Assembly: GCF_002954355.1 (NCBI RefSeq)
Contig: NZ_MQVV01000016.1
Coordinates: forward strand, 248,001-312,000
Length of the DNA stretch: 64,000 nt
Direction: 5' to 3'
Source: Nonlabens tegetincola
Lineage (GTDB): Bacteria; Bacteroidota; Bacteroidia; Flavobacteriales; Flavobacteriaceae
Below the pieces are notes generated by a model. It searched no databases, was not told the DNA's origin, and saw only the letters and a list, made by a program, of their open reading frames with translations. Both the position numbers and the translations under genes were made by a program. This document shows, piece by piece, positions 42,799-44,634 of the stretch. How positions within the stretch are numbered: position 1 is the stretch's first letter; each line of letters begins with the position of its first letter.

Positions 42799-42806
42799 TA
42801 TCTTTG
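42799..42806 (+). promoter_or_regulatory. candidate -7 box for dnaX
   Basis: TATCTTTG (perfect TAnnTTTG) ends 4 bp before the dnaX ATG, which would give a leaderless mRNA. No convincing -33 element; tentative. Confidence 0.35.
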
Positions 42807-42810
42807 ACCT

Positions 42811-44634
42811 ATGGAACCGTTTATAGTAAGCGCACGTAAATACAGACCCGAAACCTTTGAAGATGTTGTTGGTCAAAGGGCAATTACTCAAACTCTAGAG
42901 AATGCTATAAAAAGCAATCATCTAGCGCAGGCGTTACTATTTACAGGACCTAGAGGTGTAGGAAAAACTACATGTGCCAGAATTCTTGCCAAAAAAATAA
43001 ATCAAGAAAGTGGAGATTATAGTCCAGATGAAGACTTTGCTTTCAATATTTTTGAATTAGATGCTGCCTCAAACAACGGTGTAGAGCACATACGTAGTAT
43101 TGTCGATCAAGTACGTATTCCTCCACAAGTGGGAAAATATAAAGTATATATCATAGATGAGGTTCACATGCTATCAAATGCTGCCTTCAATGCGTTTTTA
43201 AAAACCCTTGAAGAACCACCATCTCATGCTATTTTTATTTTAGCCACTACCGAAAAGCACAAAATTATCCCTACCATATTATCTAGATGTCAAATATTTG
43301 ATTTTAAAAGGATTACGGTAGGCGCTATGAGAGATCACCTTAAAAGAATAGCTCAACAAGAAGGTATAAACGCTGAGGAAGAAGCGTTGCAAATAATAGC
43401 TCAAAAAGCAGATGGTGCACTGCGTGATTCCTTGTCGATTTTTGATAGAGTGGTAAGCTTTTCTGGTAAAGATCTTACTGTACAAGCTGTAACAGAAAAT
43501 TTAAATGTTTTAGATCGTGATACGTATTTCAAGGTAACCGATTTGATTCTAGATGGCGACATCCCTAATCTTCTTGTCACTTATGATGAAATACTAGCTA
43601 AAGGTTTTGATGGTCATCATTTCATAAGTGGTCTGGCAAGTCATTTTAGGGACCTCATGGTTTGTAAAGATGAACGCACTATCCAGCTTTTGGAATTAGG
43701 TGAAAAAACTAAAGCAAAATATAAAAGTCAGTCTTCTCATACAGATTTAGGTTTCCTGCGTGAGGCTATAGAAATAGCAAACAACGCCGATTTTAACTAT
43801 CGTGCTAGTAGAAATCAACGATTACATGTCGAACTAGCTATAATGAAACTAGCCTCTGTCCTTCAGGATGGAGAAAAAAAAAACTCCAATAGCTACATAG
43901 TAGGTCCTGAAAAGTTTACAGAAACCCTAATAGATGATGTAAAACCTACTGAGGAACAAAAACAGGAAACAGCTCACGTTACGAAAGCAGCACCTTCAAA
44001 AGTAATATCTGAAGAGCCATCAACTTACAGGAATTCTGAAAAGCCTATAGAATCAACCAGTCCTGTACCAGAGAAGACACCTCATTTGAATTCCCAAAAC
44101 TTTGTGGATACCTATGATCGTGAAGCTCAATTAAAAGCTGCTAGAGCAAGATTGTCTTCTAAAACTAAAGAAACTGTAAGTAGTAGTTCTATCAAAGCGA
44201 TACAGGTAAAAAATGAGCACGTCGCCAAAGCTGCTCAAAAAGTAATTAAACATGATGAATTACCTACAAAACCCTTTAGTCAAGAGGAGTTAAATCTAGT
44301 ATGGAATAAATACGTGGATTATTTAGAGAATAAAGGCCAGCGTATTTTAGCTAGTATTCTCAATGCAGATGATCCTGAATTGATAGAAAAATCAGGTATA
44401 CGCCTAAAATTTCCTAACAAATCAATGAAAGAGGATCTTGAAAAAAATCAAGGTACGGTTTTGGAACATTTGAAAAGGGAGTTAAACAATTACAATATTT
44501 ATTTTGATATCATAGTAGATGAGCAGGTAACCAAAAAATATGTATTTACAGAGCAAGAGAAGTATCAAAAATTGTCTGAGAAAAATCCTGCGCTAGAATT
44601 ACTAAGAAAAACATTTGATCTCGATTTTAAATAA
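42811..44634 (+). CDS. dnaX: DNA polymerase III subunit gamma/tau
   Basis: A 607-aa clamp-loader ATPase. Walker A GPRGVGKT at 46-53, Walker B IIDEVHML, sensor 1 ATTEKHKIIPTILSRCQ and the arginine finger SRC motif are present, and domain III ends near residue 350 (HVELAIMKLASVL). The zinc module (CxxC cluster) of E. coli DnaX is absent between KKINQESGDY and FNIFELDAAS, as I recall for other Bacteroidetes. A run of ten As spans codons 355-358, exactly after domain III; slippage there gives a stop within a few codons. The region beyond about 360 is a low-complexity linker, then the tau C-terminal domain (FSQEELNLVWNKYVDYLENK). Confidence 0.95.
   Translation: MEPFIVSARKYRPETFEDVVGQRAITQTLENAIKSNHLAQALLFTGPRGVGKTTCARILAKKINQESGDYSPDEDFAFNIFELDAASNNGVEHIRSIVDQVRIPPQVGKYKVYIIDEVHMLSNAAFNAFLKTLEEPPSHAIFILATTEKHKIIPTILSRCQIFDFKRITVGAMRDHLKRIAQQEGINAEEEALQIIAQKADGALRDSLSIFDRVVSFSGKDLTVQAVTENLNVLDRDTYFKVTDLILDGDIPNLLVTYDEILAKGFDGHHFISGLASHFRDLMVCKDERTIQLLELGEKTKAKYKSQSSHTDLGFLREAIEIANNADFNYRASRNQRLHVELAIMKLASVLQDGEKKNSNSYIVGPEKFTETLIDDVKPTEEQKQETAHVTKAAPSKVISEEPSTYRNSEKPIESTSPVPEKTPHLNSQNFVDTYDREAQLKAARARLSSKTKETVSSSSIKAIQVKNEHVAKAAQKVIKHDELPTKPFSQEELNLVWNKYVDYLENKGQRILASILNADDPELIEKSGIRLKFPNKSMKEDLEKNQGTVLEHLKRELNNYNIYFDIIVDEQVTKKYVFTEQEKYQKLSEKNPALELLRKTFDLDFK
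43874..43883 (+). other. A10 tract in dnaX, candidate slippage site for a gamma-like product
   Basis: Ten consecutive As (GAA AAA AAA AAC) sit at codons 355-358, at the border between the AAA+ clamp-loader core and the tau-specific part. A -1 shift reads AAA CTC CAA TAG; a +1 shift also ends in TAG six codons later. The resulting protein of about 360 aa would equal gamma. Confidence 0.55.

Follow-up and report, generated by a model that had tools for sequence, protein, structure and literature searches.

A conserved A10 run in dnaX of Nonlabens tegetincola as a likely slippage site giving two forms of the clamp-loader protein

The dnaX gene of Nonlabens tegetincola, encoding the gamma/tau subunit of DNA polymerase III, carries a run of ten As (A10) directly past the sequence for domain III, and comparison with related genomes indicates that this run is likely to be a programmed slip site through which one gene yields the clamp-loader protein in both a short and a long form. 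The gene lies in a stretch of 64,000 nt from contig NZ_MQVV01000016.1, hereafter the window, to which all positions refer (Table 1).

Table 1. Features of the dnaX locus in the window
Feature	Position	Strand	Remarks and basis
Sequence TATCTTTG 5' of dnaX	42799..42806	+	ends 4 nt before ATG; resembles presumed Bacteroidota -7 promoter element
dnaX, DNA polymerase III subunit gamma/tau	42811..44634	+	607 aa; tau in frame 0
Clamp-loader core, residues 1–350 (ATPase domain, lid, domain III)	42811..43860	+	Pfam, model helix
A10 slip site (putative), codons 355–358, GAA AAA AAA AAC	43874..43883	+	sequence, conservation
Poorly ordered linker opening the tau extension	43884..44112	+	low pLDDT
TAG, first -1-frame stop past the run	43890..43892	+	6 nt after the run; 360-aa gamma-like product
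TAG, first +1-frame stop past the run	43898..43900	+	14 nt after the run; 362-aa gamma-like product
Tau C-terminal part, predicted folded, residues ~435–607	44113..44631	+	AlphaFold2 model

The dnaX product matched the NCBIfam gamma/tau model NF011531 with 704 bits against a cut-off of 685. Its core comprised matches to PF13177, PF22608 and PF12169, the last covering domain III (residues 223–350). Structure was predicted with AlphaFold2 from 36 aligned proteins, giving a mean pLDDT of 68.5 with the first 170 residues modelled poorly. In this model the last core helix spans residues 336–349, pLDDT falls below 50 at residues 355–360 and 376–437, and the predicted C-terminal part of tau consists of two helices (435–452 and 458–476) and an alpha/beta part (491–602). 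The run is located at 58 % of the gene length, within GGA GAA AAA AAA AAC TCC (codons 354–359). A preliminary description made from the window sequence had placed the run at codons 355–358, immediately following the final domain III helix, and had both shifted frames stopping almost at once to give products of about 360 residues. All of its coordinates were found to be correct, and both the end of PF12169 at residue 350 and the model helix agree with its placement of the run, as do the two nearby TAG codons and the predicted product lengths.

Upstream of the gene, TATCTTTG resembles the -7 element of Bacteroidota promoters. The motif TAnnTTTG was present 4–7 nt upstream of the dnaX ATG in all 22 loci of the genus and no more than 12 nt before it in 33 of 98 family loci, compared with 0.016 in shuffled sequences. 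A promoter motif so near the ATG suggests a leaderless dnaX mRNA.

Under the proposed mechanism, RNA polymerase copying the run would generate mRNAs with A9, A10, A11 and so on. Those with A10, or with A10 +/-3, would be read through to the 607-aa tau, and the remainder would shift translation to the -1 or +1 frame and end it at the corresponding TAG shortly past the run. The off-frame product would be a gamma-like protein of 360–362 aa, comprising the clamp-loader motor without the tau tail, and both products would be expected to enter the clamp loader. Slippage of this kind would give all three frames whatever the run length near 10, so that a one-base change in the DNA would only swap the product encoded in frame 0; with such buffering of run length, frequent flips would be nearly neutral. 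Replacement of the run with GAGAAGAAGAAC would leave tau only. From the comparisons below we infer that slippage takes place in N. tegetincola, mainly at the level of transcription.

For the genus, 23 genomes were searched and 22 gave a dnaX match. An A-run was found at the same place in all 22 loci (18 A10, 3 A11 and 1 A8), and both short frames stopped within 24 nt in every case. Eighteen loci, including that of the window, were tau-first, with tau in frame 0. The other four (L018, L019, L022 and L023) were reversed, or gamma-first, with frame 0 stopping 0–5 nt past the run to give a gamma of 357–360 aa. Tau was in the -1 frame in L018 and L019 (both A11) and in the +1 frame in L023 (A11) and L022 (A8). 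With L018 and L019 drawn from two genomes and separated from their tau-first relatives by more than run length, simple homopolymer errors do not explain them. L022, from a genome 86 % complete, and L023 could be assembly homopolymer errors.

The family was represented by 149 genomes, one per genus except for two of the window's genus, of which 148 gave a match, and all 148 loci were read. Run lengths were A10 in 127 loci, A11 in 15, A9 in four and A13 in one, with no run in the remaining locus (L273), such that A9 or longer was present in 147/148 loci (147 genera). Tau was in frame 0 in 125 loci, in -1 in 20 and in +1 in three, and 22 of these 23 gamma-first loci had A9 or longer. Both off-frames stopped within 20 nt in 94 % of the tau-first family loci, compared with 20 % of 2361 control positions. 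As the loci are related by descent, these counts are not independent.

A similar pattern was observed across much of the phylum. Among the best 80 of 593 relatives found in species genomes, which formed the named set, 72 had A9 or longer, and runs of at least 9 occurred in named Flavobacterium, Chryseobacterium, Pedobacter, Mucilaginibacter, Rufibacter, Hymenobacter and Dyadobacter and in several Bacteroidales. The eight of the best 80 in which A9 was absent included six labelled Bacteroidales, Bacteroidaceae or Bacteroides. The phylum search covered 118 genomes, two of them without a match, and A9 was absent from 2 of 28 further loci found in it. For 33 distant loci of other classes, hand-picked for spread over families and so not a random sample, A9–A10 was present shortly past the core in 18 and absent in 15, and eight were gamma-first, all with tau in -1. 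Not all of the phylum has the run, so dnaX can be functional in its absence. Six named loci (L059, L072, L076, L086, L087 and L100) were tau-first with no long A-run just past the core, and gamma in these may be absent or otherwise made; L087 has an A10 289 nt past the core end. L102, from one metagenome bin, lacked an A-run and had gamma in frame 0 and tau in +1, an arrangement that could reflect assembly error or another mechanism.

Removal of duplicates reduced 276 loci to 271, of which 259 had A9 or longer, 217 had exactly A10 and 28 had A11–A13. One short frame extended beyond 30 nt in 9 of the 259. For L279 and L093 the tblastn match to tau disagreed with the longest frame, and the latter was used to count both as frame 0; L261 was cut by a contig end.

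In an AT-rich genome, a Glu-Lys-Lys-Asn linker might be encoded by such a run by accident, without any function. The probability of A10 in a gene given its amino acids is indeed not small (median 0.46), and the two lysines following the core (K356 and K357) do not vary among 36 aligned tau-first proteins, so part of the run conservation could be at the protein level. With proteins held fixed, however, synonymous shuffles of all 125 tau-first loci among the 148 family loci predicted A10 or longer in 55.7, and it was observed in 124; the nominal z of 12.9 is overstated because the loci are related, although the direction is not in doubt. The first Lys-Lys pair past the core was encoded by AAA-AAA in 125/125 of these loci, compared with 286/571 for Lys-Lys pairs elsewhere in the same genes, in a test that picks codons by amino acid only. 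In addition, the 259 runs of A9 or longer were kept in all three codon phases (209, 31 and 19 loci), A9–A10 was found in 6/6 loci of family f15 of another class, where locus GC is 50–59 %, and the gamma-first relatives require a frame change. On this evidence a functionless accident is very improbable, and a run arising by chance or driven by amino acid content was rejected on the synonymous nulls and the Lys-Lys test. The lysine codons that fall entirely within the run are AAA in 259/259 cases, but this must be so by construction and was discarded as evidence.

It had been noted from the window alone that many alternatives to the linker codons were available, and conservation of the run and of nearby out-of-frame stops in relatives had been named as a check. 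Both are conserved in the family loci, and an examination of the 125 tau-first loci for a run broken by AAG found the AAA-AAA pair intact throughout.

Within the window, long A-runs are avoided, with dnaX as the exception: for the 58 ORFs of at least 100 aa, synonymous shuffles predicted 5.9 sense A-runs of at least 9 and only that of dnaX was present. T-runs of at least 9 were expected 3.7 times in the same ORFs and none was seen. The 3.03-Mb genome contains nine A/T runs of at least 10, both strands taken together (15 overlapping matches). The dnaX run is one of five that fall on stop-to-stop ORFs of at least 80 aa, and another of these (window 8035) is located just upstream of the first Met. 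The remaining three are an A11 inside a 317-aa ORF on a 7.8-kb contig (L280, 808–818), an A10 inside a 213-aa ORF (L284, 806–815) and a T10 inside an ORF of more than 500 aa (L286, 807–816).

The reversed relatives were used to assess whether tau is retained when it lies out of frame. For the out-of-frame tau tail, dN/dS was 0.12 for L018/L019, 0.12 for L043/L045, 0.04 for L089/L090, 0.17 for L040/L043, 0.11 for L022/L023 and 0.30 for L138/L141, and the tau tail of L023 compared with that of tau-first L017 gave 0.14; three of the ten pairs were saturated in dS. The out-of-frame tau is thus under purifying selection in the pairs tested. An untranslated tail would be expected to decay, and the low dN/dS values therefore indicate that a frame change at the run is needed in the reversed relatives, with which the window gene shares both the run and its position. 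The generation of a gamma-like subunit by slippage, as put forward in the preliminary description, is supported by these relatives, which cannot make tau without a frame change and from which we infer slippage in the window gene. Among the 57 gamma-first loci with A9 or longer, tau needs a -1 change in 50 and a +1 change in seven.

On a tree of the 271 loci, 36 changes of arrangement were counted, compared with eight changes in the presence of a run of at least 9. The tree was built with FastTree from core proteins only, and misplacements inflate the figure of 36. The arrangements were nevertheless clustered, as 100 label shuffles gave a mean of 55 changes. This clustering bears on the idea that the run is a contingency (phase-variation) locus at the DNA level, with strains switching between tau and gamma by replication slippage. 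Close species of the genus do differ in run length (A10 in L016 and L017, A11 in L023 and A8 in L022), but clustered arrangements argue against such switching. Moreover, the tau tail of E. coli binds the polymerase and the helicase, so that all-or-none loss is unlikely to be tolerated, and we regard phase variation as extremely improbable.

The frame change could take place during transcription or translation. In PMC3711429, mixed frame directions among orthologues are taken as a sign of transcriptional realignment. The bias to -1 suits a ribosomal shift equally well, which leaves the transcriptional argument to the minority of +1 genes, and these are few (7 loci). The 50:7 bias would also fit insertion-favoured slippage by RNA polymerase on A7–A11: a study cited in PMC6260861 found the efficiency of insertion on such runs to be no less than double that of deletion. 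According to the same paper, poly(A) is less prone than poly(T) to slippage by E. coli RNA polymerase, and deletion, not insertion, predominates on an A11 tract in vitro with the E. coli polymerase.

A less likely route to gamma, to which we assign a small but appreciable probability, is an E. coli-like shift of the ribosome to the -1 frame on A_AAA_AAA or A_AAA_AAC. The run holds -1 slippery heptamers, and the preponderance of tau in -1 is as expected for this route, whereas the seven +1 loci are not. A GGAG at 43870–43873 in the window adjoins the run; in E. coli the Shine-Dalgarno stimulator precedes the slippery sequence by about 10 nt. Downstream RNA structure was not enriched, with a mean z of -0.38 for 123 tau-first loci and -0.31 for 21 gamma-first loci compared with -0.27 at +200 nt, and no stem-loop signal was detected past the window run (z -1.03, 31/200 shuffles as stable); a downstream structure acting as ribosomal stimulator was therefore rejected for both the window and the family. 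Seven As would suffice for a heptamer, yet ten are kept. An AAG lysine codon closes the run in only 18/125 tau-first family loci, although A_AAA_AAG is described as by far the most shift-prone of such sites in E. coli (PMC5009743), and the in-frame A_AAA_AAG heptamer is absent from the window site, GAA AAA AAA AAC.

Ribosome sliding on poly(A), which would require no programmed signals and make both off-frames, is improbable. In E. coli systems, ribosomes sliding on iterated AAA are described as terminating at out-of-frame stop codons (PMC4363877), but with little product on A9/A10 and robust product on A11, and exactly A10 is present in 217/271 loci; the 28 loci with A11–A13 lie outside this argument. 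Slippage by RNA polymerase of the Thermus type, preferred over the E. coli type in the preliminary description, thus remains the likely mechanism, as suggested by the occurrence of both frame directions, the lack of an enriched hairpin and the small number of AAG-ended runs.

The family locus without a run, L273, belongs to genus g18, for which 21 genomes were searched, many of them incomplete, and 17 gave a match (L320–L336). In each of the 17 loci, all gamma-first, gamma ended exactly 30 nt past the core and the tau tail was in -1, and no A-run was found in any of them, the longest having 3–5 As. The 14 loci nearest to g18 in the set all had A10 or A11. Codon columns indicated -1-frame selection from about 15 nt past the core with the frame-0 stop retained. 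The third base was invariant in 7 of 185 conserved columns with synonymous freedom. Six of these seven were in the last stretch (GAA-TTA-TGT, CAA and TCT-CTC), and one creates a -1-frame ATG in 17/17; for comparison, the next best of the 28 leucine columns ends in A in 14/17. The ORF from this ATG is 201–234 aa in length, and 16/17 tail ORFs matched the window tau tail with E 3e-10 or better. A -1 slip at A_AAG followed by the stop was rejected because -1-frame selection begins upstream of that site, which is better fitted by an internal start or a shift at TCTCTCC. The favoured reading is that the g18 gene is truly split, with the tau tail probably made as a separate polypeptide from its own internal ATG inside the gamma end; alternatively, TCTCTCC may be a new shift site.

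Taken with this presumed split in g18, the run and its flanking stops may amount to a freely reversible, indel-tolerant gamma/tau switch in much of the phylum, consisting of an A10 between stops in two frames that persists as the gene alternates between the tau-first and gamma-first arrangements. We hold this broader interpretation tentatively, at slightly less than even probability.

The proposed outcome resembles that of E. coli, where a shorter gamma is likewise made from within the tau frame. In the E. coli site, A_AAA_AAG is combined with a stem-loop and, on its 5' side, a Shine-Dalgarno stimulator, whereas the window has A10 followed by C and no stem-loop signal. A closer parallel is dnaX of Thermus thermophilus, for which PMC1088944 and PMC5009743 report transcriptional slippage on A9 from experiment. 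Tau is in frame 0 there also, with a sense A-run and near stops in both other frames, and gamma is made from slipped transcripts. The Thermus run is A9 and located seven-eighths through the gene (PMC1088944), whereas that of the window is A10 at just over half, and slippage is reported from experiment in Thermus and predicted by comparison in the window gene. The Thermus type is further characterised by mRNA of heterogeneous A length and a gamma:tau ratio of about 1:1. The window gene has a sense run of at least 9, tau in frame 0 with two near stops and a run conserved in relatives, as in the Thermus type.

A cluster of split dnaX genes found with GeneTack is described in PMC3711429, comprising 17 genes with 10 As in 12 genera, all -1, for which transcriptional realignment was proposed. 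These have the same arrangement as L018, L019 and other gamma-first family loci, and the window gene shares their A10 run. The cluster is gamma-first and -1 only, whereas the window gene is tau-first and both arrangements and both directions occur among its close relatives. In Blochmannia, a dnaX frameshift in a homopolymer is located within the tau-only region (PMC3017870). In a literature search covering mainly open-access papers without their supplements, no published account in this group was found among the papers listed, of which PMC3711429 was judged the only directly relevant one apart from general reviews and work on Thermus or E. coli. The window gene is therefore a further case of the Thermus type, a kind already known from Thermus and PMC3711429. 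Apparently new are the near-fixation of A10 in the family, the flips in both directions within the genus (among about 36 changes overall) and the run-less dnaX of g18.

Whether a separate gamma is important is a long-standing point of debate, based largely on E. coli (PMC5009743). Retention of the run in 147/148 family loci, together with the flipped loci in which tau requires a frame change, suggests strong selection for producing both forms. Transcriptional slippage as a regular part of gene expression could readily be studied in this family, by comparison as well as by experiment, and dnaX ORFs in this group that end near residue 360 need not be broken genes.
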